In this document: positions 7,659 to 31,692 of the stretch, piece after piece | Layout of the letters: every line of letters starts with the position of its first letter | How positions within the stretch are numbered: the stretch's first letter is position 1 | Source: an uncultured Saccharospirillaceae bacterium | GTDB lineage: Bacteria; Bacteroidota; Bacteroidia; Flavobacteriales_D; CAJJDF01 | DNA: 42,784 nt | Reading direction: 5' to 3' | Assembly: GCA_950054195.1 (NCBI GenBank) | Contig: CATLPG010000023.1 | Location: 1 to 42,784 of the forward strand | Position numbers and translations under genes: made by a program | The notes under the pieces: model-generated | The model's input: only the letters and a program-made list of their open reading frames with translations | Databases searched by the model: none | What the model was told of the DNA's origin: nothing

Positions 7659-7731
7659 CACGGGTGGAGAGACTCGAACTCCCAGCCAATAGTTTTGGAG
7701 ACTACTACTCTACCAATTGAGCTACACCCGT
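7659..7731 (-). tRNA. tRNA-Trp (anticodon CCA)
   Basis: The minus strand folds as a 73-nt cloverleaf: acceptor stem ACGGGTG pairing with CACCCGT, D-arm GTAGCTCAATTGGTAGAG, anticodon loop CTCCAAA with anticodon CCA, T-arm GGGAGTTCGAGTCTCTC, and discriminator G. The 3' CCA is not encoded. It lies between tuf and secE, a common position in bacteria. Confidence 0.96.
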
Positions 7732-7742
7732 AAACAAGTAAA

Positions 7743-7768
7743 CAATTCCAGCCCTAAAGCTGGAATTG
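7743..7768 (-). terminator. Hairpin after tuf
   Basis: Perfect 10-bp arms (CAATTCCAGC at 7743-7752 and GCTGGAATTG at 7759-7768) around a 6-nt loop. On the minus strand it is followed by a weak T-rich stretch (TTTACTTGTTTA). It begins 24 bp after the tuf stop and lies before tRNA-Trp. A partial terminator or processing site is likely, because the genes beyond have no clear promoter of their own. Confidence 0.6.
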
Positions 7769-7792
7769 CATTACTTAATTTATTTTATTTAA

Positions 7793-8980
7793 TTAATCTA
7801 AGATTTCAGTCACTTGACCAGAACCTACAGTTCTACCACCTTCTCTGATAGCGAATCTTAAACCTTTGTCCATTGCTACTGAAGTAATTAACTCAACAGT
7901 AATTTCTAAGTTATCACCAGGCATTACCATTTTCACTCCGTCAGGTAATTGGATTTCTCCAGTTACATCAGTTGTTCTAAAATAGAATTGCGGTCTATAT
8001 TTATTCATAAATGGAGTATGACGTCCACCTTCTTCTTTCTTTAAGATATATACTGTTGCCTTGAACTTAGTATGAGGAGTAATTGTCCCAGGGCGAGTAA
8101 TTACCATCCCTCTTTTAATATCATTCTTATCAACACCTCTTAATAAAAGACCTACGTTATCACCTGCTTCACCTCTGTCTAGGATTTTTCTAAACATTTC
8201 AACACCAGTGATAGTTGATTGAATTGGCTTATCAAGAAATCCTGAAATTTCAACAGCATCACCAGAGTTAATAACACCAGTTTCGATTCTACCAGTTGCT
8301 ACAGTACCTCTACCAGTAATAGAGAATACATCTTCAATTGGCATCAAGAATGGCTTATCAACTTCTCTTGGAGGTAGTTCAATCCAGCTATCAACTGAAT
8401 CCATCAATTCCTCAACGGTCTTTACCCATTTTTCTTCTCCGTTAAGAGCTCCTAAAGCAGAACCCATGATTACAGGAGTGTTATCTCCATCATAGTCGTA
8501 GCTAGATAACAAATCTCTAACTTCCATATCTACTAACTCTAATAACTCCTCATCATCAACCATATCCACTTTATTCAAGAATACAACCATTCTTGGAACA
8601 CCTACTTGTCTTCCTAAAAGGATGTGCTCTCTAGTTTGAGGCATTGGTCCATCAGTAGCAGCACAAACAAGGATAGCTCCATCCATTTGCGCAGCACCAG
8701 TCACCATGTTTTTAACATAATCTGCGTGACCTGGACAATCTACGTGAGCGTAGTGTCTGTTAGCAGTTTCATATTCAATGTGTGAAGTATTAATAGTAAT
8801 ACCTCTTTCTCTTTCTTCTGGAGCGTTATCAATAGATCCAAAATCCTTTTGTTGAGCTAACCCTTTGCCAGCTAAAACAGAAGAAATTGCTGCAGTCAAG
8901 GTAGTTTTACCGTGATCTACGTGTCCAATAGTACCAATATTTACGTGTGGTTTTGAACGGTCAAATGTTTCTTTAGCCAT
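7793..8980 (-). CDS. tuf: Elongation factor Tu
   Basis: GTPase that delivers aminoacyl-tRNA to the ribosome. The full-length 395 residues carry the G1 motif GHVDHGKT (residues 19-26), [16 protein letters not shown] with the switch threonine, DCPGHADY (81-88, containing the catalytic histidine H85) and NKVD (about 136-139). Domains 2 and 3 follow, ending [15 protein letters not shown]. It is preceded by four tRNA genes and followed by tRNA-Trp and secE. Confidence 0.99.
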
Positions 8981-9033
8981 TTTTGTTCTTGTTTGTTGTT
9001 TATTATTTATTTAAAATACTTAACTCTTAAAAA

Positions 9034-9105
<72 letters not shown>

Positions 9106-9113
9106 AAAAAAAG

Positions 9114-9187
9114 AGCGGGAGACGGGATTCGAACCCGCGACCCTCAGCTTGGAAGGCTGACGCTCTAGCCAGCTGAGCTACTCCCGC
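9114..9187 (-). tRNA. tRNA-Gly (anticodon TCC)
   Basis: A 74-nt cloverleaf on the minus strand. The acceptor stem is GCGGGAG pairing with CTCCCGC, the D-arm GTAGCTCAGCTGGCTAGAGC, the anticodon loop CTTCCAA with TCC, and the T-arm GCGGGTTCGAATCCCGT. It is 8 bp upstream of tRNA-Thr(GGT). Confidence 0.96.
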
Positions 9188-9210
9188 TTTTAAATGCTTT
9201 CAATTAGTTG

Positions 9211-9292
9211 TGGGGAGAGCAGGATTCGAACCTACGAAGTCGAAGACAGCAGATTTACAGTCTGCCCCAGTTGGCCGCTTTGGTATCTCCCC
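9211..9292 (-). tRNA. tRNA-Tyr (anticodon GTA)
   Basis: An 82-nt class II tRNA on the minus strand. The acceptor stem is GGGGAGA pairing with TCTCCCC, the anticodon stem CAGAC/ATCTG encloses a loop with GTA, a long variable arm lies between anticodon and T arms, the T-arm is TAGGTTCGAATCCTG, and the discriminator is A. Confidence 0.96.
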
Positions 9293-9325
9293 AACAATAT
9301 TTTTTAAAATTCTTTTCAGAACTTG

Positions 9326-9399
9326 AGCCGATAGAGGGACTCGAACCCACGACCTGCTGATTACAAATCAGCTGCTCTAGCCAGCTGAGCTATATCGGC
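9326..9399 (-). tRNA. tRNA-Thr (anticodon TGT)
   Basis: A 74-nt cloverleaf on the minus strand. The acceptor stem is GCCGATA pairing with TATCGGC, the anticodon stem CTGAT/ATCAG has loop TTTGTAA with TGT, and the T-arm is GTGGGTTCGAGTCCCTC. It is the first transcribed gene after the consensus promoter at 9428-9458. Confidence 0.96.
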
Positions 9400-20824: not shown

Positions 20825-21778
20825 TTAAAATCTTCTTGGAGTTTTAAATCCTTTTCCTAAGAAATCAAGATCATAATTAACCATAATTTCATGTGACCCT
20901 GTGTTGTAAGTTGACAAACTACTTAAGGAGTAATCATACGCATATCCTGCTCTGAATGTTGGAGAAAAGTGGAACATAAGGTTTGCTACGGCTGCAACAA
21001 TTCCTTTATCTGCATCACCTAAACCTCTTAAGCCCGCACCTACCCATAGTTTCTCATAAAAAAGAAAGTTCAAATTTATATCTGTCGATATTGGCGCATT
21101 AAATACAGTTCTTAGGGCTAAGCTAGGCTGAAATTCTATTACACTAGAAAGATCAAACGTATACCCCCCAGTTAAGAAAAAGTGTCTTTTTTCAGTACCA
21201 CTATTTGGAGCAGTTGTTAAAGCATTATCTAATAATTTTGGAGCTGATAAACCAACATAATATTTTGCACCATACCAATATGCACCTGCTCCAAAGTTAG
21301 GTAGTGGTCTATTAGACACATTAATTTGCGATGGATCATTAGGGTCAATAGAGGTTAAATCGCTTAGATTTGCAGAAAACAATCTAACTCCAGCCTTCAA
21401 GCCGAAAGATAACACACTATTATTTAATTTAATTCTGTAAGCACCATCTAAAAACAATGCATTAGTTTGAATTGCATTCTCACCAATTTCATCATAAAAT
21501 GCAGTAAAACCTACTGCAAAAGACTCATTTCTAAAAGGACTGTGAATAGAAAATGTTCCAGTTGTAGGAGCACCATTAATGCCTACCCATTGCTTTCTAC
21601 CTAAGAGCGTAACACTCAACGCATCTCTACTACCTGCCACAGCTGGATTAACAACTAATGGATTAAAATAGTGCATAGTAAAAAGTGGATCTTGTTGAGA
21701 AAAAGAAACATCCTGTAATAAAGATGTCGCCAAACCAACAAATAACAAACTCTTGGATAGTAAGTTATTTAGCTTCAT
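20825..21778 (-). CDS. PorP/SprF-family type IX secretion outer-membrane protein
   Basis: Outer-membrane beta-barrel of 317 residues. The signal peptide (MKLNNLLSKSLLFVGLATSLLQDVSFS) leads into the family N-terminus QQDPLFTMHYFNPLVVNPAVAGSRDALSVTLLGRKQWVGING. Later blocks are also typical: FSIHSPFRNESFAVGFTAFYDEIGENAI, YRIKLNNSVLSFGLKAGVRLFSANLSDL and FSPTFRAGYAYDYSLSSLSTYNTGSHEIMVNYDLDF. It has its own consensus promoter and precedes the PorE-like gene, so the two probably work as a pair in T9SS. It is only distantly similar to the PorP/SprF-like protein at 14738-15787. Confidence 0.92.
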   Translation of the reverse strand: MKLNNLLSKSLLFVGLATSLLQDVSFSQQDPLFTMHYFNPLVVNPAVAGSRDALSVTLLGRKQWVGINGAPTTGTFSIHSPFRNESFAVGFTAFYDEIGENAIQTNALFLDGAYRIKLNNSVLSFGLKAGVRLFSANLSDLTSIDPNDPSQINVSNRPLPNFGAGAYWYGAKYYVGLSAPKLLDNALTTAPNSGTEKRHFFLTGGYTFDLSSVIEFQPSLALRTVFNAPISTDINLNFLFYEKLWVGAGLRGLGDADKGIVAAVANLMFHFSPTFRAGYAYDYSLSSLSTYNTGSHEIMVNYDLDFLGKGFKTPRRF

Positions 21779-26099: not shown

Positions 26100-26240
26100 T
26101 ATTAATAACAACAATAAAACTCGATCACTATCAATCACTTGTCCATATAGCATACGAAGAAAATAGTGGTTATGACATCAATCATAGTTTCTAATTCTAA
26201 TTAGTCAAATATTTGTAACAACAAATAAATTACACTCATT

Positions 26241-27491
26241 ATGAAACTGAACTATTTATTCAACTGTTTTATTACAGCGATAGGTTTTTCTTCTATTTTA
26301 GCTCAACCTATTACTGATTCTATAGAATTAAATCCTAATTATACAGAACAAGTGTTTTATCAATTATTTGATGGAAGTAAAGTTTCTGGAAATAATACAG
26401 AATGGGACATCCAAGGTTTTACTAGTTTATTTGCTTCTTCATTTAGAATTAATGGAGGTAATGGTGTTGCACTTTACGATCCTGTTAATAGTGACACAGC
26501 AGATTTCACTACCTCAACATTAGACACAACTGGTATGGTTTTGTTACATGATAGTAATAGTAGATGGCAAGATGATGCTTTTCAAAGTACTGCTACGGGA
26601 CATCCAAATTATGGCTGGGGAGAATATAAAGGACTAGGACTTCTTATTGGAGTTAAAACGTTTGCTATAAAATTATCTTCTGGTGTAGTAAAAAAAATTA
26701 TTATCAGAAGAATGGATCCTAGTGGACCCATGACTTTCGAAATTGCTGATTTAGATGGATCAAATTACCAACAAATTATCGTTGACCGTGTTGATTACGA
26801 AACAAAGTATCATTATTATTTAGATATAGAGAACGATACCGTTTATGATGTAGAAGCATTAAAAAATGAGTGGGATATTGTTTTTAGGAAATATGAAGAA
26901 GAAATTGCACCAGGTGTTTATTACCCAGTCGTTGGTGGACTCTTGAATTATGGTGTTAGCGTTGCTCAAGTTAACAATGTAGATGTTATGGATGCTCAAA
27001 CAACTTGGACAAGTTATACTTTTGAGCAAACATTAAACACAATTGGACATGATTGGAAAACCTTTAACAATCAAACATTCTCTTGGGAACTAGAAGATAG
27101 CTTATCTTACTTTGTACAAGATGTAAATGAAGATATTTACCAATTGGTTTTTACTTCTTTTGAAGGGTCTTCAACTGGTAAATTTCATTTATGGAAGCAG
27201 CAAGTTGGTACAGCTTCTATTGATGAAACAACTGAGGAAGTACAAGTAACAATTTATCCTAACCCAACTACTGATAATCTTAATATTACATTCAATCAAA
27301 ATAACCAAACTGGTGTTAATGTTTCAATTTACAGTACGAATGGACAGTTAGTTAAATCATACACTAAGCAGGCTGTTAAAGGTTTACAGAATTTACAAAT
27401 AGACGTTAATGGGTGGAATAAAGGTATGTACATACTAAACATCACCTCAGATAATCAATTGATTTCTACAAAAACTTTTATCAAACAATAA
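26241..27491 (+). CDS. HmuY-like secreted protein with T9SS type A C-terminal domain
   Basis: Predicted surface or secreted ligand-binding protein of 416 residues with a signal peptide (MKLNYLFNCFITAIGFSSILAQ). The body resembles HmuY, the heme-capturing protein of Porphyromonas: an opening strand (QVFYQLFDGSKVSGNNTEWDIQGFT), a central NEWDIVFRKYEEE, then IGHDWKTFN and SYFVQDVNEDIYQLVFTSFEG. The last 80 residues form a type A sorting domain (VTIYPNPTTDNLNITF, VSIYSTNGQLVKS, GWNKGMYILNITSDNQLISTKTFIKQ). The product of the third gene of this cluster shares the same body blocks. Heme binding is inferred from the family and context; the ligand is not proven. Confidence 0.78.
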   Translation: MKLNYLFNCFITAIGFSSILAQPITDSIELNPNYTEQVFYQLFDGSKVSGNNTEWDIQGFTSLFASSFRINGGNGVALYDPVNSDTADFTTSTLDTTGMVLLHDSNSRWQDDAFQSTATGHPNYGWGEYKGLGLLIGVKTFAIKLSSGVVKKIIIRRMDPSGPMTFEIADLDGSNYQQIIVDRVDYETKYHYYLDIENDTVYDVEALKNEWDIVFRKYEEEIAPGVYYPVVGGLLNYGVSVAQVNNVDVMDAQTTWTSYTFEQTLNTIGHDWKTFNNQTFSWELEDSLSYFVQDVNEDIYQLVFTSFEGSSTGKFHLWKQQVGTASIDETTEEVQVTIYPNPTTDNLNITFNQNNQTGVNVSIYSTNGQLVKSYTKQAVKGLQNLQIDVNGWNKGMYILNITSDNQLISTKTFIKQ

Positions 27492-29723
27492 TTGATATTA
27501 AAACGAACAAATAAATCAGAGGGCATATCCTCAGTTTTTTGCTGGGGTATGCTTATCCTGTTTTCTAATTTAGGATTTGGTCAGGAAACAATTAAAGTCA
27601 TTACTGATACTAAAGATCCAATTCCTTACGCTCATTTAACAATTAAGTGTGATAATAAAGAAATTCATACAATAGCAAATGCCACAGGAGAATTTCAAAG
27701 ACCTGTAGACTGTGATACTATGGAAGTTAAAATCAAAGCTTTGGGCTTTGCTACCTCTTGGAAAAAGGTAACTCCTTCTACTTCTTTTATAAAATTAGCT
27801 CCTCAAGATATTGTAATGAGTGAGTTAGTAGTTACCGGACAGTATGCTCCAGAAAGTGTTGATCAATCGATCAATAAAGTTAGGATAATTGACAGCAAGC
27901 GAATTCAAGCTCAGGGTGCTGTAAACTTGCAGGAAGTTATGGAGCAAGAAATGAATATCCGTGTTTCGCAAGATCAATTTTTAGGTTCATCCATGAGTAT
28001 TCAAGGATTATCGGGTGAGAATATCAAAATACTTGTAGATGGTGTTCCTGTTATTGGACGTCAAAATGGTAATATTGACTTGTCTCAACTCAACCTAAAT
28101 CAGGTAGAACGTATAGAAATTGTTGAAGGCCCAATGTCTGTTAATTATGGTACAAATGCACTAGCCGGCACCATTAATATTATTACAAAGCAACCTACTG
28201 AAAAGCTAGCTGGCTCGATTACTTCCTATGTAGAAAATGTTGGACAATACAATGTTAGCGGTCAAGTATCAACTACGGTCAAAAAAACAAATATTGGTTT
28301 TCATGGAGGGAGAAACTTTTTTAATGGGTTTTCTTTATCAGATTCGGGCAGAGTTCAGCAATGGAAACCCAAAGAACAATTCTTTGGAGGAATTTCAATC
28401 GCTCGTAAAATTAAACAAACAACACTTTCTTTAAAGTCTGATGGGTTTCAAGAAAAATTGATCGTGAGAGGTGCACCACGTGCTCCTTATTACGAAACTG
28501 CCTTTGATGATTATTATTATACGACTCGTTTTACCAATCAACTATCTATCGACCATCAGTATAAAAAGCCTTGGAAGTTAAATATTGTTGCTGCTTACAA
28601 TCATTACAAACGTGAAAAAATTGGGTTCTTAAAGAATTTAGTAACGGTAGAGAACCAAGAATTAACAGCTCCAGAATCTAAAGACACAAGTGTTTTTAAT
28701 TTAATGATGAGTCGAGGAAGTATCTCATATGTTAAGGAAGATGCTAAAATTAATGGACAATTAGGTTATGATATAAACATTGAACAATCAAGAGGTAAAA
28801 GAATTGAAGATCAAACCAGAGAAATTGGAGATTATGCCCTGTTTGGAAGTCTATCATTTGACCCTGTTAAAAAGCTGAGCATAAAATCAGGAATTAGATA
28901 TGCCTACAATACACAATACTCCTCTCCTATTATTCCTTCGGTTAATTTAAAGTATCAAGCCAGTGAGCATTTATCGTTTCGATCATCCTATGGAAGGGGT
29001 TTTCGCTCACCCTCGCTAAAAGAACTCTATTTTTTATTTGTTGATATCAATCATAACATACAAGGCAATCAAAATTTATTGGCTGAAACATCCAATAACT
29101 ATATGTTACAAATGACTTATAAAAGAGGGATTAAACGTGGAGTTTATGATTTTAATTTAGGAGGATTCTACAATGATGTTTCTAATCAGATTGCCTTAAC
29201 ACTTGTAGATCAAGCTTCTCAACTGTATACTTACCAAAATATTGGTCAGTTTTACTCAAACGGCATCAATTTTAGTTCAGGATTTAGGTATAAAACCTAT
29301 AAGACACATTTCGGCTATTCATATATTGGTAGGTATAATATTAATCATGAAACAAACCCAGAAATTCAGGCGTTTAATTACTCTCCTGAACTTGTAGGTA
29401 ATTTTATTTATGAAGTTGAAGAATGGAGAACTTCGTTTAGTTTATTTTACAAATACAATGGGAAGCTTTTGGGGTACCAACTGAGTGATTTTGGAGATGT
29501 TACATCTTTTGAAATCCCAGCTTACAGCATGATGGATGCAAGTATTACTCATTTACTATTTAAAAAGAGATTAAACCTAACGGGTGGTGTAAAGAACATC
29601 TTTAACGTAACAAATTTACAATCTAATGTTTCAGGAGGCATTCACCAATCAAGTGATGGGACTACATCAATTGGTTGGGGAAGATCATTTTTTATTCAGA
29701 TAAGTTATACATTTGCTAAATAG
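27492..29723 (+). CDS. TonB-dependent outer-membrane receptor, HmuR-like
   Basis: Ligand-gated outer-membrane channel of 743 residues. After a signal peptide (ending NLGFGQ) it has a carboxypeptidase-like domain (about 35-110), a plug domain (NLQEVMEQEMNIRVSQDQF, IQGLSGENIKILVDGVPVIG, VERIEIVEGPMSVNYGTNALAGTINIIT) and a 22-stranded-type barrel ending FFIQISYTFAK. A barrel segment reads GRGFRSPSLKELYF, then VDINHNIQGNQNLLAE, resembling the FRAP/NPNL box with an intervening histidine of heme receptors. TTG at 27492 is the likely start, directly after the stop of the HmuY-like gene; the first in-frame ATG would destroy the signal peptide. Heme as substrate is likely but not certain. Confidence 0.85.
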   Translation: MILKRTNKSEGISSVFCWGMLILFSNLGFGQETIKVITDTKDPIPYAHLTIKCDNKEIHTIANATGEFQRPVDCDTMEVKIKALGFATSWKKVTPSTSFIKLAPQDIVMSELVVTGQYAPESVDQSINKVRIIDSKRIQAQGAVNLQEVMEQEMNIRVSQDQFLGSSMSIQGLSGENIKILVDGVPVIGRQNGNIDLSQLNLNQVERIEIVEGPMSVNYGTNALAGTINIITKQPTEKLAGSITSYVENVGQYNVSGQVSTTVKKTNIGFHGGRNFFNGFSLSDSGRVQQWKPKEQFFGGISIARKIKQTTLSLKSDGFQEKLIVRGAPRAPYYETAFDDYYYTTRFTNQLSIDHQYKKPWKLNIVAAYNHYKREKIGFLKNLVTVENQELTAPESKDTSVFNLMMSRGSISYVKEDAKINGQLGYDINIEQSRGKRIEDQTREIGDYALFGSLSFDPVKKLSIKSGIRYAYNTQYSSPIIPSVNLKYQASEHLSFRSSYGRGFRSPSLKELYFLFVDINHNIQGNQNLLAETSNNYMLQMTYKRGIKRGVYDFNLGGFYNDVSNQIALTLVDQASQLYTYQNIGQFYSNGINFSSGFRYKTYKTHFGYSYIGRYNINHETNPEIQAFNYSPELVGNFIYEVEEWRTSFSLFYKYNGKLLGYQLSDFGDVTSFEIPAYSMMDASITHLLFKKRLNLTGGVKNIFNVTNLQSNVSGGIHQSSDGTTSIGWGRSFFIQISYTFAK

Positions 29724-30748
29724 TGATTAAGCAGATACATAGTACTCTTTTAATTATTCTTTTACTCGGTTTAACCAGCTGCGAAAGGAAAGAAAAGCCT
29801 ATTGCTCCATATGATCGTGGAGGAATCGTAGCTAATCAAGTAGGTATTATTGAGAATAATGCTTACACAAATCAAGTATACTTCAATTTAGCTAATAATA
29901 CAGAAGTAAAAACGGTTAATCGTACCATTTGGGATTTATCTTTCAATACAAAAACAAACGAAATTAGACTCAATAGTTCCAATTTTATTACAGTCATAAA
30001 TACGGAAGACACTAACTTTTCAGCTATTACTTCAAGCGCCCCTCCTACAGATTATGATCACTCGAATGGAAACGAGGATTCTGTAGCATTAAAAGGTATG
30101 TTTACTAGCCAGGGGGTAACTAAACATGTTTTTGTTGTAGATAGAGGTCAAAATCCAATACCCATTGGAAGTGTTCCAAACCCAGCTCCATACCAAAGAG
30201 GAACTAAAAAAGTACAACTTTTGGAAGTCTCAGAGTCAAATTATCTAATAAAGTATGCTAATTTAAGTGGGAGTAATGAAAATACATTAAGCATTCCTAG
30301 GGACACTACTCAAAATTTCATTTATTTTTCTTTTGATAATACTGGTAGCATCGTATCTGTAGAACCTCCTAAACAAAGTTGGGATCTTATTTTCACCCGT
30401 TATACAACGGTTGCAAAACTTATTAGCACGCAAGAAACAAAAGATTACTTGGTTACCGGTGTACTAATTAATAAATGGCAAGGGGTTAAAGGAGTTAAAG
30501 TAAATAATAAATCTTACGAGCAAATTACCATTGACGACTTAGCAAATTATTCACTTACTGATTCTCTAGATGTTATAGGTTATGATTGGAAACTTTTTGA
30601 TGATGTACAAGACAGTTATTCTATCAATCCTAGCAGAAGTTACCTTATTCAAGATCAACAAGGTTTTTATTACAAGTTACGCTTTACTGATTTTTACAAC
30701 AATCAAGGAGAACGTGGTTACTCATCTTTTGAATTCCAGAAACTATAA
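29723..30748 (+). CDS. HmuY-like lipoprotein
   Basis: Predicted surface lipoprotein of 341 residues with a lipobox cysteine at C20 (LLLGLTSCERKE). It has two HmuY-type segments: QVYFNLANNTEVKTVNRTIWDLSFNTKTNEIRLN near the N-terminus and PKQSWDLIFTRYTTV in the middle. The end (VIGYDWKLFDDV, SYLIQDQQGFYYKLRFTDFYN, GYSSFEFQKL) matches the body of the secreted protein at 26241-27491. The GTG start at 29723 shares a base with the receptor stop (TAGTG), indicating coupled translation. HmuY itself is a lipoprotein that passes heme to HmuR, which this cluster resembles. Confidence 0.82.
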   Translation: MIKQIHSTLLIILLLGLTSCERKEKPIAPYDRGGIVANQVGIIENNAYTNQVYFNLANNTEVKTVNRTIWDLSFNTKTNEIRLNSSNFITVINTEDTNFSAITSSAPPTDYDHSNGNEDSVALKGMFTSQGVTKHVFVVDRGQNPIPIGSVPNPAPYQRGTKKVQLLEVSESNYLIKYANLSGSNENTLSIPRDTTQNFIYFSFDNTGSIVSVEPPKQSWDLIFTRYTTVAKLISTQETKDYLVTGVLINKWQGVKGVKVNNKSYEQITIDDLANYSLTDSLDVIGYDWKLFDDVQDSYSINPSRSYLIQDQQGFYYKLRFTDFYNNQGERGYSSFEFQKL

Positions 30749-30765: not shown

Positions 30766-31692
30766 TTAAGGATAAATCTTTTCTCCTATTCTTTGCTCTA
30801 TCCCTTCAATTCCTTGCAGTCCACCTGTATGAATCACTAATAGCTTATCTTTTTGGCTAAACCTTCCTTTTTTTATTAAATCTAACAAACCATAAGCCAT
30901 TTTACCATTGTAGATTGCATCCCATTTAATATGATGTGCATTATAAAATTCACCAAGAAACTCTATAAGCTCGGGAGAAATTTTAGCGTACCCTCCAAAA
31001 TGATAATCGGTAACTAATTCCACCCTGCTCATTATATCTTCAACAAATTCTTGATCTGCATCTATCATATGAATAAAACGAATCATTTCATCCTTAATAA
31101 ACGCTCCTCCTTTTAATGCTGGAAAAACCAATAGCTTTTGGTGTGGTTTTAGCATTAATGCAATACCAGCTGCTGTGCACCCAGTACCTGCCGGACAAAG
31201 AATATGAGTGTATTGTTCATCCTCTTTTGTTAAAATTTCCATACATCCATTCAACCCATAGTAGTTACTTCCTCCTTCAGGGATCATATAAAATGCTCCA
31301 AGTTGATCACATAATTGCTCTTTAACTTCAAAGCTATCTTTCTCTTTATAAGTTGATCGATCAAGGTAATGTAATTTCATTCCCCAAGAAACGGCATTAC
31401 TAAGTGTAGGATTTAGTGGCAAATGTTCTTCTCCCCGAATTACACCAATGGTCTCAAAACCATAAAGCTTACCAGCTGCTGCTGTAGCAGATATGTGGTT
31501 TGAGTATGCCCCTCCAAAAGTAAGTATGGTGCTATTACCTCTTAGTTTGGCCTGTTCAAGATTATATTTAAGCTTTCGCCATTTATTTCCACCAATAGTG
31601 GGGTGAATGAGATCTTCCCTACGAATATCAATTTGAATAATATTATATTGTGAACCTAAAGGTATTTCTACTGTAGAAGTGGCGACTTCCAT
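30766..31692 (-). CDS. PLP-dependent enzyme of the ACC deaminase/D-cysteine desulfhydrase family
   Basis: Cytoplasmic pyridoxal-phosphate enzyme of 308 residues. The probable PLP lysine is K37 (GGNKWRKLKYNLEQA), followed by the substrate loop GGAYSNHISATAAAG and a glycine-rich phosphate-binding loop (CPAGTGCTAAGIAL). The C-terminus has HTGGLQGIEG. Family members act as 1-aminocyclopropane-1-carboxylate deaminase or D-cysteine desulfhydrase; bacterial genes of this kind more often encode the latter activity, and sequence alone does not decide. It shares one base with the end of the TraB/GumN lipoprotein gene. Confidence 0.85.
   Translation of the reverse strand: MEVATSTVEIPLGSQYNIIQIDIRREDLIHPTIGGNKWRKLKYNLEQAKLRGNSTILTFGGAYSNHISATAAAGKLYGFETIGVIRGEEHLPLNPTLSNAVSWGMKLHYLDRSTYKEKDSFEVKEQLCDQLGAFYMIPEGGSNYYGLNGCMEILTKEDEQYTHILCPAGTGCTAAGIALMLKPHQKLLVFPALKGGAFIKDEMIRFIHMIDADQEFVEDIMSRVELVTDYHFGGYAKISPELIEFLGEFYNAHHIKWDAIYNGKMAYGLLDLIKKGRFSQKDKLLVIHTGGLQGIEGIEQRIGEKIYP

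Follow-up and report, generated by a model that had tools for sequence, protein, structure and literature searches.

A T9SS-sorted HmuY-like protein, a TonB-dependent receptor and a HmuY-family lipoprotein encoded together as a recurrent gene trio in Bacteroidota

Work on HmuY has mostly dealt with human-associated anaerobes, in which a receptor goes together with one or several lipoprotein HmuYs. In P. gingivalis, the gene of a HmuY-fold lipoprotein adjoins that of a TonB-dependent receptor (HmuY-HmuR, hmuYRSTUV). A preliminary description of the locus studied here took one HmuY and one HmuR to be the known arrangement; this holds for P. gingivalis, but other Bacteroidales have several HmuYs per genome, as the available text of PMC12106395 reports for Porphyromonas. 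In F. psychrophilum, the HmuY relative HfpY binds heme and is co-transcribed with its receptor HfpR under low-iron induction, in the order receptor, THC0290_1813 (an unknown gene), hfpY; the accessible part of that report describes no T9SS-sorted partner (PMC9331221). The HmuY C6N29_01035 of F. columnare has a T9SS tail in the same protein and is stated to be T9SS-secreted (PMC9618737, citing Thunes 2022). In the media tried there, growth was not impaired by its deletion, and the available passages of that paper describe neither a neighbouring receptor nor a neighbouring HmuY lipoprotein. In R. anatipestifer, hmuY adjoins the receptor gene hmuR, and a third gene, RAYM_06185, is merely termed hypothetical in the text available (PMC5609570). 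Finally, an iron-responsive hmuY of P. intermedia is followed by a T9SS-tailed gene, whose likeness to HmuY is not stated in the accessible part of PMC10434189. In the open-access literature, we found no account of a conserved module in which the receptor lies between two HmuYs, one T9SS-sorted and one a lipoprotein. Neither T9SS secretion of a HmuY nor the presence of more than one HmuY in a genome is novel; we regard the conserved trio reported here as an additional form of the HmuYR system.

The window, that is, the whole stretch of DNA analysed (42,784 nucleotides), carries the trio at 26241-30748, with all three ORFs on the + strand (Table 1). The proteins on either side of the receptor are called P1 and P3 below. 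Compared to P. gingivalis, the window adds a second, T9SS-sorted HmuY-like protein, and the bodies of its two HmuY-like proteins are larger (about 300 aa with an insertion, versus about 190 aa for P. gingivalis HmuY). The CobN-type hmuS and the membrane genes of P. gingivalis are not beside the trio: inspection of the adjoining ORFs with profiles revealed no hmuSTUV, so that the locus is not a P. gingivalis-type hmu operon. The next gene (30766-31692, opposite strand) encodes a PLP-dependent enzyme.

Table 1. Features of the trio and of its upstream region in the window
Feature	Position	Strand	Basis	Details
Palindrome TATGAC-ATCA-ATCATA, candidate operator	26171..26186	+	exact match to TATGAYNNNNRTCATA	just upstream of the candidate promoter
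Candidate -7 promoter element AATATTTG	26208..26215	+	by eye, inferential only	
P1, T9SS type A-sorted HmuY-like protein, 416 aa	26241..27491	+	ORF, profiles, model	signal peptide about 1-21; HmuY-fold body about 22-326; sorting domain 338-414
TonB-dependent receptor, 743 aa, TTG start	27492..29723	+	ORF, profiles	FRSP504-His521-NQNL526 heme-type box; second conserved His718
P3, HmuY-family lipoprotein, 341 aa, GTG start	29723..30748	+	ORF, profile, model	lipobox Cys20; HmuY core and large insertion

The ORF coordinates bear out the gene junctions that had been claimed: the P1 and receptor genes touch, and the receptor stop overlaps the P3 start by one base. The receptor TTG lies directly 3' of the TAA stop of P1, in the same frame (27489-27492). 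Read-through of this stop would yield a P1-receptor fusion. Among relatives, a gap of zero length was found in just 3 of 62 direct P1-receptor junctions, and the in-frame abutment is therefore probably a coincidence.

P1 ends in a T9SS type A sorting domain (PF18962, 64 bits for a cut-off of 27; TIGR04183, 53.9 bits for a cut-off of 23), profiles recognise TonB plug and barrel domains in the middle protein, and P3, whose lipobox LTSC ends at residue 20, matches Pfam HmuY (PF14064) with 72.6 bits (cut-off 27). At E<=0.001, PF14064 is found in 62/62 P3-type proteins and in 46/69 P1-type family members. The P1 of the window has no match to this profile at E<=1, which is why we call it HmuY-like only: it is a P3 homolog with the HmuY fold, outside Pfam HmuY membership. 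P1 is homologous to P3 over its full length: BLASTP (E 1e-13, 27% over 292 positions) and profile-profile comparison (100% probability, E 7.6e-54, 271 columns) align nearly the whole of the two bodies. The preliminary description had rested their kinship on shared body motifs; the homology stands, but YxxQDxxxxYYxLxFTxF is exact in P3 only, P1 reading ...IYQLVFTSF by eye. The difference in export that it had pointed out, sorting domain versus lipobox, proved to be a family-wide rule, the T9SS tail being present in 119/123 P1-type and 0/112 P3-type proteins. In 64 of 108 P3-type proteins, the lipid Cys begins a strict C-x-K-(D/E)2 signal for lipoprotein export; the P3 of the window reads C-ERKEK at this place, which departs from the strict surface-lipoprotein (LES) signal. 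The available text of PMC5080379 defines C-x-K-(D/E)2 as a surface-export signal for Capnocytophaga.

A structural comparison with HmuY, suggested in the preliminary description, was carried out on AlphaFold2 models made from alignments of the window and GTDB relatives (69 rows for P1 and 62 for P3, picked from 76 and 68 complete proteins, near-copies and some others being removed). Model pLDDT was 92.9 for P1 and 93.2 for P3. With the P3 model, Foldseek gave 9 matches at E<=0.001, every one a HmuY-type entry, and VIA-align superposed it on heme-bound HmuY (3h8t) with Z 11.7 over 138 residues at 2.3 A. Because these aligned residues are scattered over model residues 32-341, while the next non-HmuY row reaches only Z 3.8 in VIA-align, P3 is modelled as a HmuY core carrying a large insertion. 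For the P1 body, VIA-align gave PinO at Z 12.8 (3.4 A, 145 residues) and HmuY at Z 12.2. In Foldseek, no HmuY entry did better than E 3e-3, and all-beta chains ranked above them; taken alone, this search gave unconvincing P1 hits, headed by GbpA and long all-beta chains. The P1 tail aligned with T9SS C-terminal domains at Z about 11.7, including that of mirolase (Z 11.7, VIA-align), but for the tail by itself a comparable Z is also seen with other immunoglobulin-like rows. In these models, both flanking proteins take the HmuY fold.

How widespread the arrangement is had been missed by the preliminary description. When 199 genomes from the same order were searched with the P1 body, 65 gave matches, the best match being at E 1.6e-17 or stronger in 63 of these. 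Pfam HmuY was present in 58 of the 199 genomes, and 57 of the 58 were also on the P1-body list (the missing one is G044). In a phylum-level genome set, 16/395 genomes matched at E<=1e-8. A scan of GTDB contigs with the single P1 sequence as query yielded no relative, whereas an alignment query succeeded, with 263 relatives, the best 80 of which were kept; these include Crocinitomix, Fluviicola, and MAGs labelled Bacteroidales and Chitinophagales. A full trio on one strand was found in 74 of these best 80 loci, ordered P1-receptor-P3 in 67 and receptor-P3-P1 in 7, and the other six stop at a contig edge. Window, order and GTDB loci were then pooled, and removal of repeats by P1 sequence left 123 distinct loci. 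All three genes lie on one strand in 111 of them and the remaining 12 are cut by contig ends, counts which, the loci having been retrieved via P1, describe what accompanies P1 and not the frequency of receptor and P3 without P1; the latter is addressed by the Pfam HmuY survey, for one order only. Chance adjacency of the three genes is ruled out by this recurrence. Across many Bacteroidota, receptor and lipoprotein have the T9SS-sorted HmuY-like protein as their fixed partner. The recurrence of the trio suggests that capturing heme in two steps is a common design of these bacteria and no oddity.

A tree of 35 P1-type and 36 P3-type proteins (from 34 of the 80 loci kept from GTDB, from the window, and with a second lipoprotein of the window's own genome), rooted at its midpoint, separated the two types into two clades split by one branch (SH-aLRT 100). 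From this separation, the sequences place the origin of the P1/P3 pair in one old divergence. A recent local duplication was also considered, and is ruled out by the two clades with a single label change. Within the loci, the receptor-to-P3 distance is at most 60 nt in 107/111 cases, and exactly -4 in 36. The position of P1 varies, its gene being sometimes parted from the receptor by inserted genes, four in some cases, or placed after P3. This tight spacing of receptor and P3, while P1 moves, suggests that the former two make up a coupled core, with P1 as a peripheral part.

In 13 of the 123 loci, the interval between P1 and the receptor contains genes for a periplasmic binding protein, a FecCD permease, a heme-type ABC ATPase and a HemS-like protein; one further locus has the same set nearby on the other strand, which brings the hmuTUV-hemS-like loci to 14. 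HemS was scored in 15 loci and DUF6607 in 33, with both in 1. DUF6607 proteins have an apparent signal peptide (e.g. L103:9605-10528, L085:10587-11495, L087:9172-10122), and their QH motif (His85) and KHWR (His100) are kept in 33/33. No paper on DUF6607 was found in the open-access literature; we regard it as a candidate heme-processing protein. A secreted CbiX-like protein (sirohydrochlorin chelatase type, with an apparent signal peptide or lipobox) is encoded in 6 loci, among them L083:9161-10114, L090:8351-9307, L143:1743-2651 and L170:10285-11241, these four genes lying directly 3' of the P1-type gene. Their gene position ties both DUF6607 and the CbiX-like protein to heme use. The gene context of the trio in relatives is that of heme and iron. 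In some relatives, small DUF6686 and DoxX/MauE-like genes also separate the P1-type gene from that of the receptor (L088:9249-9653, L085:10165-10590). In the window's own genome, no HemS was found (an E. coli control was positive) and one FecCD permease was. DUF6607 and CbiX-like proteins were not found there either, a weak absence given that this search gave no match anywhere.

The heme-receptor-like box reported for the receptor is present, and its histidine (FRxP-H-NxxL, His521 in the window) is kept in 111/112 full-length receptors. His718 is kept in 110/112, and these two are the only His, Met or Cys residues of the receptor conserved above 70%. FRAP/NxxL by itself is not known to be specific for heme receptors; the histidine is the informative part. 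The box is described in the available text of PMC9331221. The receptor scored 119.5 bits on the TonB-hemin model TIGR01785, below its cut-off of 316.85, and almost as much, 117.0 bits, on the B12-receptor model. For the HmuY-like proteins, the known heme-ligand positions are not evidently conserved in the sequences. Among His, Met and Cys, the lipid Cys is the only invariant residue of the P3 family, which leaves no invariant His or Met, and in a weak P3-Tfo alignment the presumed Met-ligand positions of Tfo pair with Ile and Gln (by eye). One His is conserved in 61/64 P1 relatives and absent in 5/5 rows of the window's clade; conversely, His121 of P1 is invariant in that clade (5/5) and found in 15/64 rows elsewhere. 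The loss of classical residues is not decisive, because F. psychrophilum HfpY, which resembles other HmuYs only slightly, is nonetheless a heme binder (PMC9331221, from the part available).

Sequences upstream of the trio were compared in 100 of the 123 loci (dropped were those where no receptor was seen, where DUF6607 precedes the first gene, or where the upstream was too short) with 409 control upstreams drawn from the same loci. A Fur-box-like motif, TTTAGAATNATTCTAAA, was present at <=3 mismatches in 39/100 trio upstreams versus 13/409 controls (Fisher p 2e-20, a descriptive value, as the motifs were derived by word counts on the same sequences). In sequence it equals the Fur box of R. anatipestifer, ATTTAGAATTATTCTAAAT, which sits upstream of hmuR and bound Fur in EMSA, according to the accessible text of PMC5609570. 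A second motif, the palindrome ATACC-N8-GGTAT, was found at <=1 mismatch in 44/100 upstreams versus 11/409 controls, for example at L107, L170 and L118; 27 loci also have the Fur-box-like site. The window upstream has no good Fur box, the best having 4 mismatches. It has instead the palindrome of Table 1, which lies some 43 bases ahead of the putative start site deduced from the -7-like element; this element is one mismatch away from TAnnTTTG, the Bacteroidota consensus. Exact TATGAY-N4-RTCATA occurs in 6/100 upstreams (window, L065, L066, L068, L069, L117) versus 0/409 controls. A genome-wide regulon marked by the 17-base form of this palindrome is not supported, with 2 sites in the window's own genome versus 2 for a reversed control, and no recognisable iron gene near the other site. 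The case for a candidate operator is one of positional conservation, not of a regulon. A riboswitch was rejected as well: an Rfam scan of 7 sources, including the window, returned tRNAs only, and no cobalamin or other riboswitch.

We consider it rather probable that the trio is a three-part heme acquisition module, made of a secreted P1, a receptor and a lipoprotein P3, with a hand-over from P1 to P3. P1 would be exported by Sec and the T9SS, stay at the surface or be released, and capture heme at a distance from the receptor. P3 would be an outer-membrane lipoprotein, probably surface-exposed, located at the receptor and feeding it as HmuY does with HmuR, and the receptor would import heme across the outer membrane via its conserved loop histidine. 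P1 would most likely pass its heme to the P3-receptor pair. Heme as the ligand here, the P3-receptor complex and the hand-over are what we infer from the above; we hypothesise that a relay runs from P1 to P3, and the trio makes transfer from a T9SS-delivered hemophore to a surface lipoprotein a testable question. The heme reading is supported by the near-invariant receptor histidine, the hmuTUV-hemS-like genes and the Fur-box-like sites. It is weakened by the lack of an invariant His or Met in P3, by the P1-family His lost in the window's clade, by the window's poor Fur box and by a receptor below the TonB-hemin cut-off; for this organism in particular, a genome with no HemS found and a trio with no adjoining hmu genes weigh against it, and the C-ERKEK of P3 weakens the module model as a whole.

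P1 and P3 might instead supply the same receptor independently, each drawing heme from its own kind of source or distance and neither passing it to the other. This we hold to be somewhat unlikely, although the full HmuY fold predicted for both proteins, the one old divergence into two clades, which fits specialisation, and the varying place of the P1 gene beside a constant receptor-P3 pair all agree with it; a secreted P1 would have to dock separately on a receptor that already has P3 as its partner. It is improbable that the HmuY fold has been re-used to carry something other than heme, for instance another tetrapyrrole, cobalamin or an iron chelate. The heme-ligand residues, which are not evidently conserved, the similar scores of the receptor on hemin and B12 models, and the secreted CbiX-like chelatase relatives, which hint at tetrapyrroles generally, would fit this, but the three lines of support for heme just named speak against it, and the lack of any cobalamin riboswitch among the 7 sources of the Rfam scan argues against cobalamin. 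That P1 serves mainly for heme storage at the surface or for heme denial, encoded with the importer incidentally, seems very improbable: T9SS cargo can indeed be attached to the cell surface, and the P1 gene is at times distant from the receptor, but all retrieved loci that are not truncated at a contig end have a P1-type gene together with those of receptor and P3. Going beyond the three-part module, one may speculate that the default heme import route in much of Bacteroidota is an obligate two-hemophore relay. It would consist of a T9SS collector and a receptor-bound lipoprotein gate, born of one early duplication, with interchangeable cargo-processing genes (HemS and an ABC importer, DUF6607, or the secreted CbiX-like chelatase), and with the axial ligand of the collector moved in the window's clade (His lost at 134, the new invariant one being His121). 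We find this extension doubtful.

The second HmuY lipoprotein of the window's own genome (G000:C59, L004:6897-7892, - strand) is encoded near a lysyl-tRNA synthetase-like gene, on a contig that ends about 300 bases upstream of it, before any partner receptor. No second close receptor was found in that genome, distant matches only. The window itself also has five tRNA genes on the - strand (7659-9399) and a gene for a PorP/SprF-type T9SS membrane protein (20825-21778).
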